A stretch of DNA of 64,000 nt from Fistulifera solaris (lineage: Eukaryota; Bacillariophyta; Bacillariophyceae; Naviculales; Stauroneidaceae), in assembly GCA_030295235.1 (NCBI GenBank), contig AP026135.1, forward strand, positions 854,001 through 918,000, read 5' to 3'. This document shows, one piece after another, positions 1 to 46,417 of the stretch. Made by a program: the position numbers and the translations under genes. The number at the start of each line of letters is the position of its first letter. Positions within the stretch are counted from its first letter, which is position 1. Below the pieces are notes generated by a model, which worked only from the letters and a program-made list of their open reading frames with translations, was not told where the DNA came from and ran no database searches.

Positions 1-3000
1 AAATTGATCGGAGTGTGTCGCCGACTAAATTGCGGCGGAATACTTCCAAGTCCACGACGTAAAGGGCGGAAATATGGTATGGCTTTCCGCGCAAGTGGTT
101 CTTCCAGAAGCCCTCCCTCCAAAACTGGTATCCCAAGGTCTCCTTTCGTGAGGAACAGAAAGGGGTATAACCATACGGAGCTCCTTTGAGGTCCATATCC
201 CACAACTCCTTGAGGTCACCTCGGACAACTTGATCCGCGTCAACGTATATGATCTTCTTCACACTTTGGGGGAAAAGAACGTCAAGGAAAAGGATTTTAT
301 ACCCCCAAATTATACGTTGCTTTTCCGATTGACTTCGAAGCCATTGTGGCCATTTGTACGTGACAAACTCCACTTCGCATCCGATGTTACGTGCCATGGC
401 TTGCGCAGACTGCTTGAATGTTGGTGAGAGAAAATTTTCAAACAACCAGAATTTCACTTTTGAAGTTGTCCGCTTGGTGACAGAAAGCATCATAATTTTC
501 AAAAAGCGTTCGTAAAGGTGACCTGTTGCGAGTGAAAAGACGTGAATTGTATCATCAGCTTCAACTACACCATTCTCTTCGCTGTGAAAAAGACTAGTAG
601 ATTCAGCGAAACCAGACTTTCGCTGCAGCACTAGAAGTTCACCGCGGTTACTAAAGTCTTGGACAATGATTGGCATTCTGACCTCTTTTGGTATGTTGTT
701 CGGATCCACGACCAAACGACCTCCGCGTGCACTACCATCAACCATATCAAACATTGTGGCTCCTTTTGACCCTTCGGCTATGGCTAGCTCCCATATTCCT
801 GGGCTCGCTCTCAGCTGCCAATAACCAACAGTCTTCATAACTACAGTGTCAGAATAATTCATTTCTGCGCGATTTGTTGGGATAAATTGATTAGATGATG
901 ACTCCGCAATCGACCCATCCATGTCCACTTCCACAAGAGGTTGCTTAATTTGTACGCCTACTTCAGTGTCCCTATTTAGAGTCAAATGCAACCCATTCGG
1001 TGGTGTACCCTTTGTTTCGAAACACTGGCCAAAAACAAGTAAGCTTTTGAGTTCATACACAACTTTGGTGCTACCCTTTCCATTCAAAAGAGGACCATCT
1101 CCACACCTCGTTTTTGTATCACAGAGCAAATTATCTGTATCTTGCAAGGCCCAACTCTGCTGCACATCCCAGGGCTCCGGCACATCCATTCGGACAGTCA
1201 ACGTATGGCATTCCGGTAAGTTCGAAAAGCTGGCAACTGGGCTTTCAAAGTTAAAAAATGACCTATGATCGGCAACGAATCTGTAATAGCTCGTAAGTGG
1301 AATTTTCGATTCGTTATCTAAAACAGATTTCGGCAGCAATACAAGGTCGATTGCAAATTGGAGGTGATCCCGGGCTATCAGGAGAATCGAAGAAAGTCGC
1401 TGGGCGGCTTCAGACAACGGATCGAGAACAGCTCCGAGATGAACCTGCAATTAAATAAGATTAGCAAACGTAGAGTCAACAACCAATCTCGCAGACAAAC
1501 ATACCTTCAGAGCTTCTCGATTTTCATTAGGTCCATTATTCCACGACAACGATAGTTTTCTTAAGTCTTCCTTGCTCCTTACGTCTAAATCGCTTATGAT
1601 ATCCCTCAATCGAGTCCGAGAGCTTGCCTCGGCATGTTCAGAGACCAATGCGACGACACGAGCAACACTTAAAAAGTATTGTGGTGATTCGACTGGAAAA
1701 TACGGGCTTAAGATGCGTGTAACTGCTCTCGAACTTGCCATCTGCACCGACAAAAGCATTTCCACATCAGAAAGCGTTACGAGCTCGTCGTCTAATAAGA
1801 AAGTACGCCCGTTTCCGACAATCAAATTGTTTGCTGATGTTTTGCGCTGTAGATACTTCTGCGAAGAGCAAAGGCCATCATTTGATAGCATTTTCCCACG
1901 GGCCTCTGGACTAAGGTCTACTAGTTTGTCAAGAAGCTGTTTTGTGGTGAGCGACTTGTACTTGGGGTCTAGGATCGTTTCCAATGCATCAGATTCCACG
2001 AAAGAGGCTTGTGCGAAAATTGAACAAATAGCGGTTGAGGCCGCTTTTATGTTACTTGGAAGAATTCGATACGCGACGCGTTCGTTTTTGTCCGGTAGTG
2101 ATTTCATGACCGACAAAAAGGCAGCGGCATGGGCCATTCCTAACTCAGTGCTGAAGTCAAAAATACCATCAATGACAAACTTGGTAGCATTCACTCGATC
2201 CGCTTCATCCTTGGTCATTTTGTTCGGGCTGCACAATGCCTCCTCCCCAAATGAATCGTTAAGATTCAAAAATTTGGGTATGGGGCCGGAGCTTTGATCG
2301 ATGAGTAGAGGATGAATCTTAGCATAAACATTGTCTCCCTCGAGTAAATAAGCATAGACAGACTTTGGTGAAGTATCTGTGATTTTTCCTTGCGAAATAA
2401 GAGATAACATATGGTTTTGTTCCTCGCCGAAAAGTCGATTGATACTTTCATCAGCCATATTAACAGGCAACGGTCGTCCATTGACAAAACCCATTCCTGG
2501 TTTTAGGCCGCGCTGAACAGCAAATTTAATCGAATGACCGTATGCTATGACATCGTCATTCTTGTCGCCGGCTTTCATGCTTGTCGTGGCGTCCGAAACG
2601 GCTTCTTCCGCTGGCTTCAAGTTAAGACTCTGGTAAAGCTTCCCATGGAAATCTAGTAATTGGCCTATCGACACAGATTCGTTGTTGGATCGAGCATCTC
2701 TGAGGAATGACATGATGTATTCAATGTATGAGAATATCCCTCCAGGGTAGGCACGCAAGTCTCGAATGGCAGTAAGTAATAAGTGATGCACAGTTTGAGT
2801 CGTGGCTGTTGCCTTCGAAATATCCGGTTCCGACTTCGTATCAAAGATGCTAGGGATGGGACATGGTTCGCTTGTTGTAGTGCCTTGTTTGCTCAGAAAA
2901 GTCGAGCACTCCTGAAAGTGTTTCGTGTCTACGAGTAACAAACCGATTCGAACAGGATATGCGGCTTGCATGAGCTGGAGACCGAGATTCAAAGCAACAT

Positions 3001-4603
3001 TTTCTGGATCTTCAATGGGATCCATCACGGCAAGTAGTGTGAACAAATTTCTTCTCACCGAAGGTGGCCCTCCGTATTCCATATTCATCCTCATGTGATG
3101 CAGCGAAGTAGGCCATCGCGAATACAAACTATCTTTCTCAACATCATTCAGATAGATCACAGCATTCTTCCAGCCACGAGCGACATCGATCCGAAGTGTC
3201 TTCGATTTGGCATCTTTCTTATCTCCCGCACTACCCTCAAGAAATCGTTTGCCGTTCATCCATGCCGCTTGAACATCATGAAGTGCAGCTTGAGGAAGAT
3301 CCTTCAACATTTCTGCTATTTCATCCAAATTCCTTTGTTCTTTTTGTATGACGTTGAGTATATCAAACAAATTGAAGGACGCCATGTCAATCGGCAATGG
3401 CTTTCCGTTTATGTACAGTAGCCCTGGTCGGAGCGCTCCGCTTTCCTCGAGCACCTCTACGGCTTTCCGAAGATTATCAGGAACCTCCAAGTGAACTAAT
3501 GATGAGGCCATACTCGGTAAATTCTGTGATATCTGCTGCAAAGTAACAAGTGGGTCGGTGGCCGAATTCAGAATAGCTGTCGTTGCTTGCAGGGGTAACT
3601 GTCGCCGGCGCCACACCGGAGGAATGAGAGAAGAGTGAAGATTTTGATTATGGTGGGCTGACCAGAGCTTACGAACTAATGCTTTGTCTTTATCAAGACC
3701 CAGGGCTGTCAAATTGACTCCGGAAAGAAATTCTGGAGGGACATCCAGGTCATCTTTGGTTAGGTCGACCATGATCTCGTTATCAGAATGGAACAAATCG
3801 TTACCTTGGTCGTCAAATACCTTGTACTCCACGTTTCGAATATCCAACCATACACCATACCCTTGCAGCGGGAGACCCGTTGCGTTACTTTTGTTTCGTT
3901 CTTCGTAATCAACAGCACCCATGTGACGCACTACAAAAGGAATCTTTAAGTTTCTCAACAGGCGGTAGGTTGCTGCGAAAAGTGGCGTCCCCATATTCCC
4001 GTAAAGTATCACATATGCATTCTCGCCAGAAGCCGGTATTATTGTTTCTTTCGGAATCGTTTTCACCGCAGTTTGAGGCTTTGTGACAAGGAAGGAACTG
4101 AGTGTGTCGACTGCGACAATCTCTCCGTCTACCACAGCGAAAGCATCTGATGGATGCAAAAACAAGTGGTGCGATTGTTGCTGCTGCAATGTCTCTCGTG
4201 CTAATCCTCTATAGAGTTCACAGTGCGGACTCTGCGCTCGCAATGCGAGAGAAAGCTGTAAGAGCTGTTTTGCTGCTCCCATCAAAGGAGTGACCTTCAT
4301 CACCAGCTCCGCAGCTATTGCGTCACTCATCACTCGATCCAAATTTTCCTCCACCAGGCGATCAAGAAATTCGACTCCTTTTTCTTCCCGATTGTGATAC
4401 ACAAAAGCTTCACAGAAAACATTGTGCGGAGTGGAAGGCCAATGATTGGCGACGACAGATGTCTCCAACTCTCGATTCACCAGCGGGGATACCATTGTAT
4501 GGAGCTCATCATTTCCTTCTACGACCCAGACTACGATCAGTAGCAAGGGACAGAGCAATAAATTGGAAAAGATGATCGAATGCTTTGCCATGGGTGATTT
4601 CAT
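1..4603 (-). CDS. UGGT: UDP-glucose:glycoprotein glucosyltransferase (3' end outside window)
   Basis: This is the ER folding sensor that re-glucosylates misfolded N-glycoproteins for the calnexin cycle. The first exon gives about 1030 residues: a signal peptide (hydrophobic run after MAKHS) and the long thioredoxin-like sensor region. An intron with donor GTATG at 1504 and acceptor TTGCAG ending at 1445 (60 bp, phase 0) joins it to a second exon that runs off the window. That exon carries the start of the GT24 catalytic domain (DDTIHVFSLATGHLYERFLK), the metal-binding YVDADQ near 232-250, and the family block PYGYTPF followed by FWKNHLRGKPYHISALYVVD. I chose the Met before KSPMAKHS; the next Met at 4591 is equally good, and the frame stays open upstream to 4687. 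The length fits the family (about 1500 residues). The ER-retention tail lies beyond the edge. Confidence 0.95.
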
Positions 4604-5329: not shown

Positions 5330-6800
5330 TCAAAGAGGTACGACTTCGCTTGCAATCATCTCCCGTCTGGGCATTGCTAACTTTGCCATACTTTGAGTTA
5401 CGTGTATTGCAGCTTCCTTCGGTAGATTTGTGAGCAACGTCTTGGCTTTCGCTAAATCCATTGGATAGACAGCTACTTCCTGTAGTATTCTTTCGACTCC
5501 TTCGTCGCCTAGAAATGAATAGAAGTACGCAGTCAGCGGCGAATGGCGTACGTCGAAGGAGCATTCACTTCGTCTACCAAAAGCCAGAATCTCGTAGACG
5601 TCGGAATCACACTTTTCGTTCGGTTCCTTCTTAGGTTCTGGAAGCCAGTTTTCCAAACGATTGCTACTCTGCTGTTGGGACGGAAGATCTCCCATAAAGA
5701 CACTGACAGGTGCATCGCCACCGGTGAGCTCTGCGATTGCCGCCAGGACAGAAAGAGACAGTAATTTGGCGCCAACATATTTCCTTCCTACATCTAAATT
5801 GCGTTTGGCATTCGAAATGAGTCGATCCAATTCTTCATCAGACGGAACGCCCCTGAACTGGCTGAAAATCACGTTGGGCTTCAAAAAGCCGAAGAATCCA
5901 TACATTTTAAAAAAGCCCAAATTGAAACTCCTTGACGGTATACAGGAACTGATGGCGAAGCGCTTCGTTCGACTCCGGAAGCAAACTCCAGGTATTGTCG
6001 AGAAACCACAACTGATCGTCCGATCCAAAATTGCCGACGTCTTCGTTCGCCAAGTCTGCGGCACGCTGCACACAAAGAACGCACTGCTCCACGGTAAAAT
6101 TGAGCTTAAATTTGTGTGTTGTCGTCAACATTCGATGGTATAAACGATCCAGTGGTGATCCCAGCAATGGGTCTGAGGGACGGAATGGAATCGTCGATTC
6201 GATGCAACAGGCAATCGCTGCCAACTCTTCTTTAGCCAACGCGAAAGAGAGTTCTCTCACAGCAATTACCGCCGATAGAAATTCGTTAAGTCCTGTCATT
6301 GGTGTCAGCCCGTCACCTGGCTTTCGCCCAAAGATATCAATCACTATAGCTAGAACTTCATCCTTCTCGGAACCAGCATCGGGGCTAATCCTTAGTGTCG
6401 TTTGTCCATTCGCTTCCTTTTCTATGAGAAGAACTCCGTGCAGCTTTTCGCTTTGGATTTTCGAAAGCCCTCCGTCGATATTATAGTAGACGCAATCATG
6501 AAACAAAGCCGCCAATATCGTAATAGGATCAACAAGATGTTTGGAGACATCGAAGACATGCTGCACGGAATGATAATCGCGGCTGCTGATCGACATGCTT
6601 TCATGAATAAGGGTAGACATGGACTCAATTTTCGTCATGACATCATCTGATAAAGGATCAACGCCCAATTCTCTCAAACAGCGCTCCATGCGCTTCACTA
6701 AGCGACTGATGTAGGGGCTTGCGGCATCGTCTTTCCCATAGTCAATACACGGTCGCTTCGTTGCTGGTCCGATGGGACTGCCGCGCTTCGTCAACGACAT
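5330..6800 (-). CDS. HD-domain metal-dependent phosphohydrolase-like protein, frame break near 5910
   Basis: The protein has an HD-superfamily signature: YHSVQH at residues 76-81, LAALFHD ending at the HD pair (101-102), and a later NTWSLLPESNEALR block. HD proteins bind a metal and hydrolyse phosphate esters; the substrate is unknown. The first frame ends at TAA directly after a run of six T (A6 on the plus strand, 5909-5914). The reading continues without a gap in the +1 frame with KMYGFFGFLKPNVIF and QFRGVPSDEELDRLI down to 5330. The whole span is 1471 nt, one over a multiple of three, as one extra T would give. A GTATAC...TTTTCAG intron of 82 bp would also restore frame, but it would remove residues that look conserved on both sides. 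Confidence 0.75.
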
Positions 6801-38523: not shown

Positions 38524-39144
38524 TCCGAATCTATGATATTATATTTTGGTTGCATTATTTATTATTTAGTCTAGGATGACAATTGATAATGGCTTACCAG
38601 GTAAAGTTGATGATCATTCGTTCCGCCATCCAATCAATCCATTGGTGGTACGACATCATCTGCCGCTCACCCTGCTCCGGCTCCCTCATGAGTCTATAAA
38701 ATAAGTCCGTTCGAGCAAGAGAGGAAAAAAGTAGATAGAATATTACAAGCAAAGTCACTTCAAAAGAGTAACAAGAGGGTGTTTCATCGCAAATGCAAGA
38801 TAAATCATATAGAGTCAATTATTTGCAAATAACAAACAAGAAACGAAATAACTCATGACTCAAAATCAGTCGTGGCAAAAGCTCGCCTTCATTTTGGGGT
38901 TATAGTAAATGAAATACTGGTACATGTACAATGGGCCTAAAAATACACGTTTGCTAACCTTACCAGTAACCTTATTGCCCTTCATGTCGATGAAACGCGC
39001 AACGCAGTCTTCAAGTTTTGCACAGTACTTGTAGTTCATCTTTTGCTTTTGATCTTGATGGAAAAGCGCGGTAGCTGCTGTGATTCGAATGAAGTTTTTG
39101 AAGGGAGACTTCCGTTAGGTCTCCAACCAGGGTGAACCTCTTCC
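38524..39144. other. Intergenic between TPR gene and transposon
   Basis: It holds the candidate first exon of the TPR gene (about 38598-38670, minus strand). The rest, up to the transposon end, shows no coding signal. Confidence 0.4.
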
Positions 39145-39166
39145 GATAGCTCTCCCGTTAGGAGAG
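39104..39166. repeat. Two hairpins sharing the loop core CGTTA
   Basis: GGAGAC (39104-39109) pairs with GTCTCC (39119-39124), and CTCTCC (39150-39155) pairs with GGAGAG (39161-39166). Both loops contain CGTTAG. They sit at the left end of the transposon. Confidence 0.5.
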
Positions 39167-39297
39167 ACGTTAACTGACTACATTCAACTTTACAGTAGAG
39201 TACGCGCCATTGGATGTGGTACTAATTACTTAAAGGCCTTCCATCCATCATTAGTTCTACTTAGGTCACGCACAATAACCGCACAATCGTTCGCGTT

Positions 39298-41300
39298 GTG
39301 CGTTTGTTCCGTTCCGACTGCCGACAAGATGATCAGAACGCTGCATTCCTTATTGTCATAGTTGCCCTTCCGTTCCTACTGTTGCTCTTTTACAACATTA
39401 ACATGTCGATCATTGAAACGAAGGGCGGCGATCATTCGTCACGATTATGCAAAAATATGGGGCACTTCCTCCAACCGGTCCGTATGATTTTGAAAAGTTT
39501 CTCTATGACAAACCGATCCCTGAGGATGATCAGGAGCTTCTCCGCAGCATCGCTTTTGTGTAATGCGATCGAAAGCTCTTACGAGATGTCAGCAAGCACG
39601 GAGAAAGCCCTTGCTACGTGTGCACTTGCTGCAAAACGTTCTCACTTAAGTTCAAGGAAGAAAACGGCGAACTTCGATTGCTACGACCATCCTAGTACTA
39701 ACTTCAGGCACAGTTTGTTTTGCACTCCAACAAACGACCTCCCAAAGGACTGCCGCAGAAAATCAATGATAGTGCAGAACATTCCTGCTGTTCAAGACTT
39801 CTTCAAAACATGCTTCCAGGCACCAAACTTCGACAGTCATGCTACTCGCAAGAATCTCAACGCCGTCCTCAGGAAAGAGGGTTTCGACATCGAAGTTGGC
39901 CCGACAATGCATTCAAATCTCAAGAAACACTTCCGTGAGGTCTACCGAAAGGATTTGTTGATGTACAATGAGCTGTTGGCCCAGTATCTTCGGAAATATG
40001 TCGAGCTAAATCCAAATGCCTCCGTCAATTTAGAAACTGACCAGAACTCATGCTTTTTCGGTCAACTGTGTTCATTGAGAATGCCGCGCACTTCTTTAGA
40101 AATGCCTGCATTCCTGCAATCTTTTAGACGGAACACACATCCGTATACCCGAACACGATGGAATTGGAGTCCCGATCATAGGGGTCGATGGAAATGGAAG
40201 TAACATTCCACTTGGTTTTGGGTTGATTCCCTCGGAAAACAAGCAAGGGATGATATATATCCTTCTCATGATGTATCAAGCTGGGTTCAATTTCGAAGAG
40301 TTTCCAGTATTCACTGACCGAGGACACATTCTCGCCGCTGTCCGAGCGTTGGCAGAACATTATGGACTGGTTGTTTCCGTGAAGTATTGCTTGATTCATA
40401 TTCTTCAAACATTTACCATCTATTCAATATCAATCAACGATCGCTGAGAGGGCAGAGCGGTCGCTTGGTTTATGCGAGATGCAAAGCTCCAGATGTTAAC
40501 GCCTTCTTGGATGCTGCGAAGAAGCTTGTCAAAGCGCTTCCACAAATTGAAGAAAACGAAACTCTTAGTACCGGTGCGCTAATTGTTATCTATGTTCTTG
40601 GGACAATTCATCCTACTCATTGGACTGTGTTTGGAAATACACCGAGTCAACATGAATCTATGTGGGAGCCCCTATATTTTACCTATCTAGCTGAAGTGAA
40701 TGGCTTCACAGAGATAAGTGGAGACGTCGGCGAATGGAGGTGGTTGCTCAACGATCACGTGCCAGTTGGAAACAAGTTCCCTTTATATGGTTTCTGTTCA
40801 ACAAATCATGTCGAATCGGCCCAGCAGTGGCTTCTACATCATGAAGTGAGGACTAATACCCCTCCACTAGCCATTTCTAACTTTTTGATGGCGGCTGCCG
40901 AATCTCTTCGACAATTTCGAGATGAAATAACAACCAAATCTGCTAGGTTCCTCACCATATACTTTCGAAGCTTGCAAGATACAGGCAATGAAGATCTAGA
41001 TTTTGTAATAGAGGATGCTGAAGGATGCCCGATGGCAGTTTGAAATTCAAATTGTACGCTGAAAAGCACAAGAAGACGGAGTATGTTACTTATGAACCCA
41101 CGAGCACTCCGTCCCTGTACTGCTCCTGCAGTAGAACAGCGATGCGGGAAATCTACTGCGGCCACATCAACCTTGTTTCACGTGACAAGATCCTCAACTT
41201 GGCCCTCAATCCCACCCTCTGTGTTTTCGCAATTCTACGAAGAGTTTGGAAAAGTTCCGACAAGTGGTGATCGTCAGCTTCCTTACAGAGTTTCTTAACA
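39298..41300 (+). pseudogene. MULE transposase with SWIM zinc finger, broken
   Basis: The core matches the MULE DDE domain. LDGTHIRIPEHDGIG holds the first Asp, then IIGVDGNGSNIPLGFGLIPS and ENKQGM, then FPVFTDRGHILAAVRALAEH with the second Asp and KYCLIHIL. A later frame has WWEP/TNHVESAQQWLL-type segments (GFCSTNHVESAQQWL). The SWIM finger YCSCSRTAMREIYCGHI (CxC...CxH) is in yet another frame. The N-terminal region also switches frame (DYDFEKFLYDKPIPEDDQEL lies outside the longest ORF). At least four breaks separate these blocks. An intact transposase would be about 600-700 residues. Confidence 0.8.
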
Positions 41301-41624
41301 ACTATCCGCTGACTTGACGTCCCGGGATTTGGGGATATCAAGCTTGCTTATCAATCAGAAAACATTTATCCATCACCAACTTACACTGACAAGCTTAACT
41401 CGGGGAACAGAATAATCAGTAATGGTGAACCGGGACCACGTAAGTCAAAGAAAAGAAGCAATCGGCGCTGGAATCAGCACGAATGACAAAGGAGTATGAG
41501 CCAAGTTCAAAGAACAAGCTCAGTCGAAATAACGATGCAATAGCAGAAGCGATTGCCGCCGATGGTCTGTTTGATTTTGGGACCAAACCAAAGGCGGAAC
41601 ACATGCAACAGCTAGAATCAACTC

Positions 41625-42665
41625 TTGGACCTTAAACGTAGAGACGGCAAGCCCTTACCTCGGCACTGCTTTCACTGCAGATCACCGAATCACACAATTC
41701 GACAGTGTCTGGACTACCTCAAAGATGATCGAAGGTACATGGATCCTGCATTACTTGAAACTGGCGCAATTCTGGTCAACCATTTCCCAACATGCGTCAT
41801 TGACATGGATGCAGGAATTACTTCTGAAGATTTGGACAACGATGATACCTCCGGAGGACATGGCCTTCACAATATTGACAAGATTGGCTTAGTAGAAGAC
41901 TCTGATGCAGCCAATGCCATTGTCCAGTCACGGATTTTAAAGCTTACTGGAGAAGACGCTGCAGAAATTCACGCTGAAGACGACAACGAAAATAACTATC
42001 TTCTGGATATGGACCTTGCTCCGTCAGGTAGTAACCGAGATATTGTAGTAATTATTCGTGACAAGGATTACACGGAAAGAAGAAGTCACGAACAAGAATT
42101 GACCATGGTTGATGATGTCGAGGTAGGCATCCATGACGATTCCCGTCTGAACAGTGCACACTCGGGTCATCTGTCGACAATTCTAGAGGATGAAGATGTG
42201 GAACCAAGCACCGCACATAATGCTTTTGCCTCAAGTCCCGCAACAACAGAATATTCAGTAAATGAAATGCCAACAACTAGAACAAAGAGGAGATCCAAAC
42301 AAGTAACGAATTTAAAAGCGCAGAAGGCAAGTCCATCTACCGCAAAGTCATCGATATTGAAGACAGCGACCGCATCCAGACCGAATTTGAAACCACCGCC
42401 GACCACAACAGCTTGTGCTTCCAGTCCAGCAACAACAGATTTTTCATTAGTCAAAATGGCAACGAGAAAGAGGAAACGGCCGAAACAGCCACCAAATCAA
42501 AAAGCTGAAGGAACAAGTCCCGCCACAACTGATTCGTCAATCTTTGAGAGGCCGACCATGAAGAGTCAAAATCTGAAGCCACCACCTGATATCAGAGCTC
42601 ATGCCTTGACTATCGAGTCTTCAATGAATGAGAATACAACACAAAAAGGAAAAGATCGAAACTGA
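41625..42665 (+). CDS. CCHC zinc-knuckle ORF with basic repeats (inside the MULE)
   Basis: RHCFHCRSPNHTIRQC is a CX2CX4HX4C zinc knuckle, which often binds nucleic acid; it may once have been the C-terminus of the transposase. An acidic linker follows, then degenerate repeats built on S-P-A-T (ASSPATTEYSVNEM, ASSPATTDFSLVKM, GTSPATTDSSIFER) with Lys/Arg-rich spacers. No Met-independent evidence fixes the start. The repeat region continues beyond this ORF in another frame. Confidence 0.55.
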   Translation: MDLKRRDGKPLPRHCFHCRSPNHTIRQCLDYLKDDRRYMDPALLETGAILVNHFPTCVIDMDAGITSEDLDNDDTSGGHGLHNIDKIGLVEDSDAANAIVQSRILKLTGEDAAEIHAEDDNENNYLLDMDLAPSGSNRDIVVIIRDKDYTERRSHEQELTMVDDVEVGIHDDSRLNSAHSGHLSTILEDEDVEPSTAHNAFASSPATTEYSVNEMPTTRTKRRSKQVTNLKAQKASPSTAKSSILKTATASRPNLKPPPTTTACASSPATTDFSLVKMATRKRKRPKQPPNQKAEGTSPATTDSSIFERPTMKSQNLKPPPDIRAHALTIESSMNENTTQKGKDRN

Positions 42666-43175
42666 CAGCAAATTCCAGAGCCAAAGGCCCGACTCATGCC
42701 CGTAAAAGAAGTTGAAACCGCCACCGATTGCAGAAGCAAAAGCAGGAAGTCCCGCCACAGCAGTTTCTTCCATAGTTGAGATGCCAACTATGAAGAGGGG
42801 TAATCTGAGAGCACTGCCAAGATCTCATTCAAACAGTCCAACAACCGAAGTATCACGATTCCTGAAGATATGATTATAAAGATACCGAAGACAGAACCCA
42901 CTAATGCAAGTCCCGCCACGTCTGCTAGTGACGATTCATCACATGTATTTAAAAGGCGATTAGACATCCAAAAGAAGAATGCAAGTCCCGCCAAATCCGG
43001 TAATCTCAGTGACGATTCGTCGCATTTCCTGAAAATGCCGCTAGATCTGCGAAGAAAGAACTTGGCACAAAATGAAGCGCTCTCAAGTTCATTTTCAGTG
43101 GGTATTCCGAAAACCAGAAGAACTCGTAGAGCTATAACAAGTCCCGCTACTGCCACTAGTGGGACCTCATCACAA
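42228..43175 (+). repeat. Degenerate minisatellite encoding SPAT units
   Basis: About nine units, each starting near AGTCCCGCCA or AGTCCCGCAA (also AGTCCCGCTA), roughly 75-130 bp apart. Later units encode SSHFLKMPLDLRRK-like segments (SSHVFKRRLDIQKK, SSQFLRTPFDLRRK). The spacing is irregular and the frame is not kept throughout. Confidence 0.65.
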
Positions 43176-43445
43176 TTCTTGAGAACACCCTTCGACCTGA
43201 GACGTAAGATTGTAGATCCCAGAAATGAAAATCAATTTTCATTACGTCGACAACAAGTAAGGCAAATTGGAGTAGCCCCTTTGCAACCCCCAGTCATTAC
43301 TGATGAACCATCAAAGATCGTATCCTATTTTTACGACACAGCTTATCCATTTGTGGGAACCATTGAGCAATTAAATTGTTTGGTTCAAGAACACGAGTTT
43401 GATATTCCAGAATCATTTCACGGAAAACGGAAACAAATGATTTAA
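42870..43445 (+). pseudogene. Continuation of the basic repeat protein (inside the MULE)
   Basis: A 191-codon frame with three more SPAT-type units and a non-repeated end (PSKIVSYFYDTAYPFVGTIE). It lies in a different frame from the CCHC ORF, with stops between them. It probably links the repeat region to the protease part. No separate function can be assigned. Confidence 0.45.
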
Positions 43446-43792
43446 CGATGAAAAGAAGGGCTTCAACCCGAAAACGCAAGGGCGCAAACCAGCGAGGACT
43501 TGTGAGTGAGAACAATATTGCAATCCACGTGCGCTGAATACTCTTGCAGAGACAGCAAAAGGAAAGAAGTGGAATAGAATCATTTATCACTGTAGGGACA
43601 AGAAAGAATGGAAACGATCTGATTTACAACAAAGAAGATGCCAGGGGATCTCTTCGGTCACTCCTTTTGCAATCCAGTGCAAAGGGGCGCTGATAAAGGT
43701 CGCGAGTCGTCACGACCTGAAGAGGGAAAGAAGCATCATATCAAGGTGCTAGTGGTGCCACGGCATCCATAACCAGTGAATGCCTTGAAATT

Positions 43793-44450
43793 ATGAACTC
43801 GCAATGTTATTTCAATGACGCGATTGTGAACAGTTTCCTTGAAAGCATAACAAGCAAGACCGTAACGGATGAGGGAGTTATTGCACACCCGTCGTATGTC
43901 ATGAGTAATCTGTGGGATTCCGCCAACCAAAATATTAAGAGAGAGGGTAGACTGCAGCTTAGTTCAGCGTTTGTGGCATTGAATTCTATGACAAAATCGA
44001 ACAATTTGGGCATTCATTTATTCCCTATGTGCAAGGAGAGGCACTGGTGGTTGATGGTGGTTGATGCCGATAATCGAGTTATTTATTCGCTCGACTCCCT
44101 CGAAGATCCGGACGATCACTACTCTAATGCTGTCTGGCTTTCAGGTTTATTTAAATTCGCGTGCGGTGAGGCAGCAATTAGAATGCGCGTCAACAAGCGA
44201 GCAGCAGGAATCAACATTACCCGATTTAGCTCCGTGGGAATACCAAGAAATGCGTCTTCCCAATAAACTATTGCAACATGATGGCCATAGTTGCGGACCA
44301 TATGTATGTTTTTATGCGGCGACAATTCTGAAACATGGTCGACGTGCCCTCAATGAGAGGACATGGTTCCTTGACTCTATTTCGGAGATTGGAGTCGGAG
44401 ATGATCTCCGACCTTTTGTATTTGATGTTATGTTTCAATTGGCTGAATGA
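43793..44450 (+). pseudogene. C48 (Ulp1/SENP-like) cysteine protease of the MULE, broken once
   Basis: Shows the Ulp1 order: an N-terminal helix-strand block (CYFNDAIVNSFLESI), the catalytic His in CKERHWWLMVVD, the Asp in YSLDSLEDPD, and the Gln/Cys pair in LLQHDGHSCGPYVCFYAA. Ulp1 proteases cleave SUMO-like tags; transposon-borne copies are of unknown function. The His/Asp part and the Cys part are in different frames, changing near 44220. All four active-site residues are still recognisable, so decay looks recent. Confidence 0.8.
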
Positions 44451-44604
44451 CACGTATAGAGTAATGTGTGATATTAATCAACCAAGTCTAGTTTGAAACT
44501 GAAATTGTGGAGACCTGGATTTGTAATTAGTATTTACTACGTCAGTTAAGTTCTTCGAGCTATCAGCCTTGAATCGGTGGATGAGGTCACAAGAATAGGC
44601 TGAA

Positions 44605-46417
44605 ATGGATTTTCTTTCATTGGCAAGAGTCGCGCTCGGCTCTTTGCCATCAGGACAGTCCAGACGTAGGCGGTTTTCTTTATTGTCCACAATTGGAGCC
44701 GTCGAGCGCATGCAGGATCTGTACCAAATGTTGCAAGATGATCCACGCATCGATAGTTCATCGTTTCGTTGTTTGTTACAGGCGTACAGTCGGTTTCAAC
44801 CGAATCATTGGCGACTGGAAGCGTGTTTGGATTGATATGGAACGATTTGTCAGTGTATTCTTATTAGCATCTGGGTGATTCAATGGCCAATCACTCCGGA
44901 CTGCATCTTCATCAGGGCGTTGCATGATGTTAGCTTTATCGAGCGAACGACGTTGCAATGAATAGACATTCTGGCAATCCGTTAATGATGGAGAATGGAA
45001 CCGACGATCATCAATGGGCGCGATGATCTCTACTGGATGAACGAAGGTTGAATCGATAATGACAGCTTTTAACGTCTCTCCTACGACGGGAGATGGACGA
45101 TATCCGGAAAAGCTACATACACACTATTATGAGCCATTTGCGAAGACCTAAACGGAATCTCATACGCATTTAATCCATTAAGCTTGGAATTGGCAATCAC
45201 ATGGAAGTGCGAAGATGGTATCTGTAGCGCAAGACATTTCTGTTCAGGAAATCATGGATCACTTGCTAGAAGAAAAGCGCGCATGATCCCAATCTAGAGC
45301 CAGGGCTTGCACATTACACGTCGTTAATTGGGTCACACGGCTGGAGTAGACGAGATTCCGAATCACAAAAACGTGTTTTCAAGGCCATCAACGATTTAGT
45401 AAAATCAGGTTTAACACTTGATATGCAGGCGTATCAAGCATGCTTTAACGGTTTGACCAGAACCCAGTGCACAGATGGTGCTACGGTTGCGCAACAATTA
45501 CTGAGCCAAAGCATCAAACAAGGCTTACAACCGGATGCAAGATGCTTTCAGGCCGTACTAAGGGCATGGGCTGAAAGCAAGGATCCGCAGGCATTCAATA
45601 ACTGCGAAAAATTGATCTTGGAACTGGAATCATCCTATCTAGCATCTGGGAAGCAATCTTCGTTTCGCCCAAATTCACATTGTTATGTAAGCATGATCAT
45701 GGCGACTATGTATACGGCTGGAAACTGCGGACCGACTGCTGAATCCGTTTTAAATAAAATGCATAGTGCAGCGAAACAGAATATGGCAGATGAACCCGAC
45801 AAAGCCGTTTACTCTTCCGTTATGAAAGCTTACGCTAACGATGGGTCGGCTACGGACGTTGAAAGGATATACGAAAGGATGAAGAAAGCCTTCGCCGATG
45901 GAAATTACAAAGCCGCTCCAGATAATAGAAGTTGTACGATCCTATTGCATGCCTGGGCCAAAAGTGAAGACCCAAATAAGGCATTTCGGACGAGGCAACT
46001 GTTGGTTGACATGTTTAAGGCATACGAAAGTGGGAACGTGGACATGATGCCCAATATCCAATGTTACAACGCAACTCTAAATTCCTGTGCATTCTCTGAT
46101 TCGAAAAACGAGGAACAGAACACGGAGATTGTTCGTCTTGCCGTCGAAACCATCACTGATATGGAAGAGTATCACGGGGAGATTACTGAATATGCTTTTT
46201 GTCAAATATTTCATATCCTCGGCCGTTTTGTCGCTGATAAGACTGACCGACTGGACCTTACGGCCACTTTTTCCAGAAATGCTGTCAAGCTGGTTACGTG
46301 AGCGAACACGTCATGCGAGTTATTAAATCTCGCATTCCAGAGTTTTACAGCAAGCTTCCAGGAGATAACATAGCGAGGCTTCCGTCGCAGTGGACGCGCC
46401 GAGTGGTCTCGCAGTGA
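44605..46417 (+). pseudogene. Pentatricopeptide-repeat (PPR) protein gene, broken
   Basis: Clear PPR helices run from about 45290 to 46300 (QPDARCFQAVLRAWAESKDP, DKAVYSSVMKAYANDGSATD, PDNRSCTILLHAWAKSEDPN, NIQCYNATLNSC). PPR proteins bind organelle RNAs. An N-terminal piece (44605-44835, AVERMQDLYQMLQDD) is separated by about 450 bp with many stops. Upstream of 45423 the frame holds HDPNLEPGLAHYTSL, preceded by LLEEKRA in another frame. The C-terminus changes frame near 46290 into YVSEHVMRVIKSRIPEFYSK and ends at 46417. At least three breaks suggest a pseudogene, perhaps linked to the adjacent transposon, though some could be sequence errors. Confidence 0.7.

Follow-up and report, generated by a model that had tools for sequence, protein, structure and literature searches.

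A Mutator-like element with terminal inverted repeats and a same-strand Ulp1-type C48 domain in the diatom Fistulifera solaris

Introduction

Does the Ulp1-type C48 protease sequence that lies beside a Mutator-like element (MULE) transposase in the genome of the diatom Fistulifera solaris belong to the transposon, and what might such a protease do there? The locus lies in a stretch of 64,000 nucleotides of contig AP026135.1 (C16:854001-918000 in our contig numbering), referred to here as the window. An initial annotation, made from the sequence alone, described it as a MULE with a Ulp1-type protease domain in a diatom-like genome and compared it with the Kaonashi elements (KI-MULEs) and CUMULE elements of plants; the Ulp1-type domain of the KI-MULEs is indeed in print (PMC2528002). 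MULEs carrying Ulp1 have been described from Arabidopsis, melon, rice, maize, grapevine, hydra and lancelet (PMC2528002, PMC2836005, PMC13317346; here and below these papers are cited from excerpts of their text). We consider it probable that the locus holds a recently active MULE with terminal inverted repeats (TIRs) and a C48 domain on the transposase strand, and propose that both parts are made as one protein or from one transcript and that SUMO removal may aid the expression or integration of the element.

Results

Genome searches covered the species' own assembly (51.7 Mb, 61 contigs), and copy counts from the DNA search are lower bounds. This search recovered at least 21 near-full-length copies, the window copy included, at 98-99% identity, together with at least three internally deleted copies that lack query positions 409-3054. 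The other 20 near-full-length copies (the 19 loci L011-L029, and L040) measure 5846-5873 bp, and identical 130-bp TIRs stand at both ends of all 23 other copies, the deleted ones included. Aligning the copies in order to define the ends and the target duplications, as the initial annotation had proposed, revealed a 9-bp target duplication exactly at the ends in 17 of the 23 and in 22 when up to two extra bases were allowed; mismatched left and right flank pairs, used as a control, gave none in 506. The duplications of L016 and L017 fall in simple repeats and are little informative. The protease region is kept in all 24 copies, so that the scenario raised at the outset, in which other copies would consistently lack it, fails in 23 of 23 cases. 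Because there are 20 other near-full-length and three deleted copies, and 9-bp duplications flank 22 of these 23, the motifs recognized in the window are real beyond chance; the DDE core, the TIRs and the duplications together mark a cut-and-paste MULE, present in at least 24 nearly identical copies at separate sites.

All of the motifs initially claimed, namely the DDE core, the SWIM pattern, the CCHC knuckle and the His, Asp, Gln and Cys of the protease, were located on the + strand of the window. The transposase motifs read LLDGTHIRIP (40121-40150), FTDRGH (40310-40327) and, around the catalytic Glu, NHVESAQQWL (40804-40833), followed by a SWIM pattern of the form CSC-x9-CGH. The DDE piece of the window copy scored 21.6 bits (E=2.9e-4) against Pfam MULE (PF10551; cut-off 27.6 bits). 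Two protease pieces of the window copy gave E=9.4e-4 and 0.021 against Pfam C48 (19.5 and 15.1 bits, both below the cut-off of 20.7), and copy L029, in which the protease is open from before the His to the end, reached E=4.3e-8 (33.7 bits), above this cut-off. A profile built from seven transposon-type protease pieces (the window-copy family, the single-copy family L036 and a relic on C18, both described below) and run against the PDB matched SENP1 at 5.5e-7 and yeast Ulp1 at 6.1e-6; a single-sequence search of solved structures with the protease was weak (SENP2, E=0.014), and the same kind of search with the L036 transposase gave no match. None of the N-terminal transposase pieces tried matched a Pfam family above its cut-off, the zinc-finger reading of this part being by motif only. 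In NCBIfam nothing exceeded any cut-off, and viral contigs scanned with the window DDE piece, the window protease piece and alignment A1 contained no relatives. The diatom assignment agrees with abundant matches to silicon transporters (PF03842; 23 genome matches, best E 3.5e-222), a family also matched in one of 14 control genomes, below the cut-off.

Downstream of the transposase and on its strand comes the C48 domain, complete in its four catalytic residues, and the same pair recurs in two diverged families that are 39-48% identical to the window family in the DDE piece. One of them, L036 (C2:964591-969020), was found once; it is 4430 bp long, with 263-bp TIRs that are 99% alike and have no clear similarity to the TIR of the first family. 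Its order is identical: N-terminal region, DDE, SWIM motif and a C48 domain with His, Asp, Gln and Cys, so that the catalytic residues are kept in both families read as sequence. The DDE pieces of the two share 40% identity over 94 aa, and the putative SWIM motif stands downstream of the DDE core with equal spacing in both. Scanned alone, the L036 DDE piece gave E=1.9e-5 (25.5 bits) against PF10551; with its neighbours in frame in the genome search, the family reached 27.8 bits against the cut-off of 27.6. A third family, on C46, combines DDE matches at 572741-573165 (48% identity) with C48 matches of 36-38% on that strand, at 575240-575690. MULE-like matches were also observed at C38:603784-604629 and C39:614555-615403, in open frames of 899 and 750 aa and at 25-30% identity, with no C48 match detected in either frame; these are perhaps a homeologous pair and possibly a domesticated transposase gene. 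Since three families share the transposase-protease pairing and the C38 and C39 frames have no detected C48, the pairing appears, from these sequence comparisons, to be older than the split of the three MULE families in this genome, while not being a property of every MULE-like gene.

The transposon proteases also resemble each other more than they resemble host proteins. In a comparison of 11 protein pieces, L029 matched L036 at E=4.6e-14, and its best match to a host piece, one from C21, was 0.002. The initial annotation had also considered that the protease part might have a separate host locus; in the genome search no host C48 gene matched the transposon protease at E 0.01, and the sole solitary relative found, L035 (C18:126750-127181), is 35% identical, keeps the His and Asp, carries Phe at the position of the catalytic Cys and has no match nearby in the genome DDE searches.

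The three deleted copies (L037-L039) are 3197-3210 bp long and combine complete TIRs and separate target duplications of their own with one common junction; the deletion therefore most simply arose once and was mobilized in trans. It takes out the transposase and leaves the protease. In all three copies the junction joins the N-terminal start to the linker in frame, with frame breaks remaining farther on. This fits one long reading frame in the intact element, a junction in frame being expected by chance in one case in three.

Alignment with the other copies showed that the ends proposed initially (39145 and 44564) were wrong: the window copy begins at 39103 with its left TIR, which starts GGGAGACTTCCG, and element sequence continues to about 45161 (Table 1). 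The right end is scrambled, element bases being interleaved with about 210 extra bases over 44544-45161; window 44705-45400 aligned to the right end of the element with a score of 129, against a maximum of 39 among 200 shuffles. We infer that this stretch is an assembly consensus, or braid, of two different molecules. These are possibly the inserted and the empty allele, and open reading frames predicted in the braid are unreliable. The neighbouring PPR gene, on the empty allele, may be the source of the extra bases, although the braided stretch 44605-44832 has no Pfam match. The flanks of the element align to the homeologous contig C15 at 84% and 90%, and the DNA search gave no element match on C15; the aligned flanks leave a 2.3-kb gap, so this contig does not offer a clean empty site. 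Within the window copy the reading frames are broken several times and the motifs are spread over several frames: the Glu of the DDE core lies in another frame than both Asp residues, and the protease has a frame break between Asp and Gln.

Table 1. Features of the window copy (positions in the window)
Feature	Position	Strand	Remarks
Left TIR, 130 bp	39103..39232	+	Identical in the 19 loci L011-L029 and in L037-L040
N-terminal transposase part, several frames in the window copy	39447..40120	+	Cys/His pattern CxxC...HxxxC common to family L036
DDE catalytic core	40121..40833	+	D 40127-40129, D 40316-40318, CxxH 40388-40399, E 40813-40815
SWIM-type motif CxC-x9-CxH	41121..41165	+	Equal spacing in L036 (CCC-x9-CAH); no Pfam match
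CCHC zinc-knuckle motif	41667..41708	+	Pfam zf-CCHC E=0.32, below cut-off
Ser/Pro/Thr- and Lys-rich linker, repeated SPAT... units	41750..43445	+	Open frames in single copies: L012 358 aa, L028 330 aa
Ulp1/C48 protease domain	43721..44447	+	His 44042-44044, Asp 44093-44095, Gln 44274-44276, Cys 44292-44294
3' subterminal region, interleaved with extra bases in the window copy	44544..44971	+	Short direct repeats in copy L011
Right TIR region, only element bases interleaved with extra bases	44972..45161	+	Alignment score 129; maximum of shuffles 39

Near the right TIR of copy L011 (element positions 5485-5630), short direct repeats were observed: GGTCACGTAGGCTGG twice, TTTCTTTAT three times and GAGCGGTCGC twice, the last occurring once more at 1355. 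Direct repeats in this position are possible candidates for transposase-binding sites.

The frame breaks follow a distinct pattern across the 19 full copies L011-L029, over which all variation statistics were taken. Of the 95 indel sites, 81 lie no more than 4 bp from a CpG that occurs in at least one copy (mean of about 37 for random positions), as do 114 of the 118 substitution columns (mean of about 43). Counting only CpG present in most copies changed little, with 79 of 95 indel sites (random 36) and 114 of 118 substitution columns (random 40, maximum 56 in 100 draws); ignoring the variable column itself, 87 of 118 substitution columns still met this distance, against 31 at random and a maximum of 49 in 100 draws. 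In the 3168 columns that are over 5 bp away from every CpG, two vary by substitution alone and 37 hold gaps. Of the indel pairs, 1241 of 2278 failed the four-gamete test, as did 483 of 903 pairs of substitution sites. The TIR contains six CpG, yet is invariant across copies. The simplest reading is that most frame breaks are technical, reflecting uncorrected long-read base-calling error at CpG in near-identical repeats, and the error-prone CpG sites are probably methylated. Given this clustering of variation near CpG, the copies probably differ hardly at all and stem from a recent burst.

Discussion

Cut-and-paste transposition follows from the TIRs, the DDE core and the 9-bp duplications, and the favoured interpretation of the protease builds on this mode. 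A single protein, or failing that a single transcript, would comprise transposase, knuckle, linker and protease; the transposase would cut at the TIRs with a 9-bp stagger; and the protease may strip SUMO, or a SUMO-like tag, off the transposase itself or off host proteins of chromatin or repair in the vicinity of the element, thereby helping the expression or integration of the latter. The Ginger paper likewise proposed a helper role for Ulp1 and OTU domains in transposition, one suggested route being ubiquitin/SUMO control of DNA repair (PMC2836005).

Several observations weigh against the interpretation as a recently active element with a functional transposase-protease pair. Frame breaks occur in each of the 19 full copies listed, and no copy with an entirely open coding region was found. 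The DDE pieces of the window and L036 families both score below the Pfam cut-off when scanned alone, the SWIM and CCHC assignments were made by motif alone, and CCHC was not seen in the listed frames of L036. The full copy L024 has no target duplication, none was seen in L036, and a search of window 45101-45260 for an exact 9-mer found no duplication for the window copy. Lastly, the C46 family is known from match coordinates only.

The main alternative function of the protease is cleavage of its own linker. Adenain-type relatives process viral proteins, and the C48 domain could similarly be the element's own processing enzyme, cutting a transposase-linker-protease polyprotein in a manner to which SUMO is irrelevant. 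In favour of this, every part is encoded on the same strand, the domains are set apart by a long repetitive linker, and the three deletion copies read in frame from the N-terminal region, past the junction and on into the linker, as expected if there is a single long frame. The chance expectation of one in three, however, limits the weight of this last point; no cleavage motif was identified; and the top structural matches are the SUMO proteases SENP1 and Ulp1, with no viral protease among the 19 matches at E 1. We regard self-processing as possible but unlikely, and SUMO removal near the element is tentatively favoured over it. It is more doubtful still that the protease is a captured passenger, in the style of Pack-MULEs, with no role in transposition. 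MULEs often capture pieces of host genes (PMC2528002, PMC13317346), and the solitary relative on C18 has lost the catalytic Cys; a passenger would nevertheless be expected to decay, whereas the same pair persists in three families as diverged as those described here, with catalytic residues kept in both that were read as sequence, and the deleted copies dropped the transposase yet kept the protease.

There is similarly little likelihood that all copies are dead, the frameshifts being real decay and the family having been moved by a source outside the assembly. No complete frame was seen among the 19 full copies, 14 of the 95 indel sites lie away from CpG, and the 37 gap columns at over 5 bp from every CpG would also suit such decay. 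Against it stand the clustering of indel and substitution sites at CpG far above random positions, the conflict of over half of the variable-site pairs with any single tree, and the near-invariance away from CpG, with just two substitution-only columns in 3168. Together these form the pattern of uncorrected long-read error; decay as the cause of the frame breaks was mostly rejected on these grounds. As for chance adjacency of a MULE and an unrelated protease gene or relic, the window copy with its broken frames could not by itself have excluded it. In each of the other 20 near-full-length copies, as in the three deleted copies and in L036, the protease is enclosed by the TIRs, and because two diverged families pair transposase and C48 protease alike, this explanation is refuted, with a negligible residual probability.

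The preferred reading, a recently active TIR-type MULE with a same-strand C48 domain, makes the diatom element a new branch of the known MULE plus Ulp1 design. It shares with the Arabidopsis KI-MULEs (Kaonashi, KIU) a MULE transposase, a C48/ULP protease domain and a high number of copies. In the excerpts of PMC2528002, however, KI-MULEs are non-TIR elements with the ULP reversed relative to mudrA, whereas in the diatom element 130-bp TIRs are present and the protease shares the transposase strand. KI-MULE membership was accordingly rejected, on the TIRs of 23 other copies and on the + strand location of both transposase and protease, and the initial suggestion of a diatom branch of that design is unsupported. 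ULP-containing MULEs are also known from melon, rice and grapevine, and correspond to the CUMULE of the initial annotation; in them the ULP is direct or reverse (melon and rice) and occurs also in melon TIR-MULEs (PMC2528002, in excerpt). These differ in having plant hosts. Mutator elements of hydra and lancelet carry a Ulp1 domain outside plants (PMC2836005, in excerpt) and differ in having animal hosts, the comparison being by description only. MULE-Diatoms, group 37 of a 2019 Mutator survey, shares a diatom host and, judged by motif, the SWIM type, and its TIRs of 123-124 bp are close in length to the 130 bp found here; no motif beyond these is given for it in the survey table, whose entry reads 'No TSD and not indicated', and this comparison too is by description only (PMC6446971, in excerpt). 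The main text of that survey contains no occurrence of Ulp1, ULP, protease or C48 (PMC6446971). CryptonS and CryptonF elements are likewise stramenopile transposons, some with a C48 peptidase, as described for oomycetes, but are tyrosine-recombinase rather than DDE elements (PMC3212892, in excerpt). A full-text literature search combining diatom, Mutator-like and Ulp1 found no report; Repbase and subscription papers were outside its scope, and we do not claim a first in diatoms.

The MULE-plus-Ulp1 partnership, in print for plants, hydra and lancelet, thereby gains a diatom, whose genome holds three such families. This adds to the hints that SUMO-type proteases turn up repeatedly in transposons because of a benefit to the element. 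A recent, near-identical burst in a single-celled alga is a place to test the role of the protease, and the protease-only derivatives constitute a natural deletion experiment. One speculative extension, which we think improbable, is that the protease acts as a selfish helper that strips SUMO from silencing factors at the element, as a diatom counterpart of the plant VANC/KIU anti-silencing proteins, L037-L039 then being amplified 'helper-only' elements.

Flanking sequence, relics and host C48 genes

The left flank of the window copy (window 38634-38914 and 39032-39102) belongs to a dispersed repeat family that ends at the insertion point. Members occur on several contigs, with matches of 69-74% over longer stretches and 83-91% over short ones, and a 57-aa minus-strand frame from this flank has no Pfam match. 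A diverged relic, L041 (C13:533469-534991), contains stretches 85-91% alike to the ends of the element and is perhaps an older relative; neither a protease nor a DDE match was obtained there in the genome searches.

Host C48 genes are paired on homeologous contigs, with 75% identity in protein between C40 and C41 and 90% over one exon between C34 and C35. In L033 (C35:614193 and 615231), a host Ulp1-like piece occurs twice with equal score, 1038 bp apart, as a local tandem duplication that is either real or an assembly artefact.

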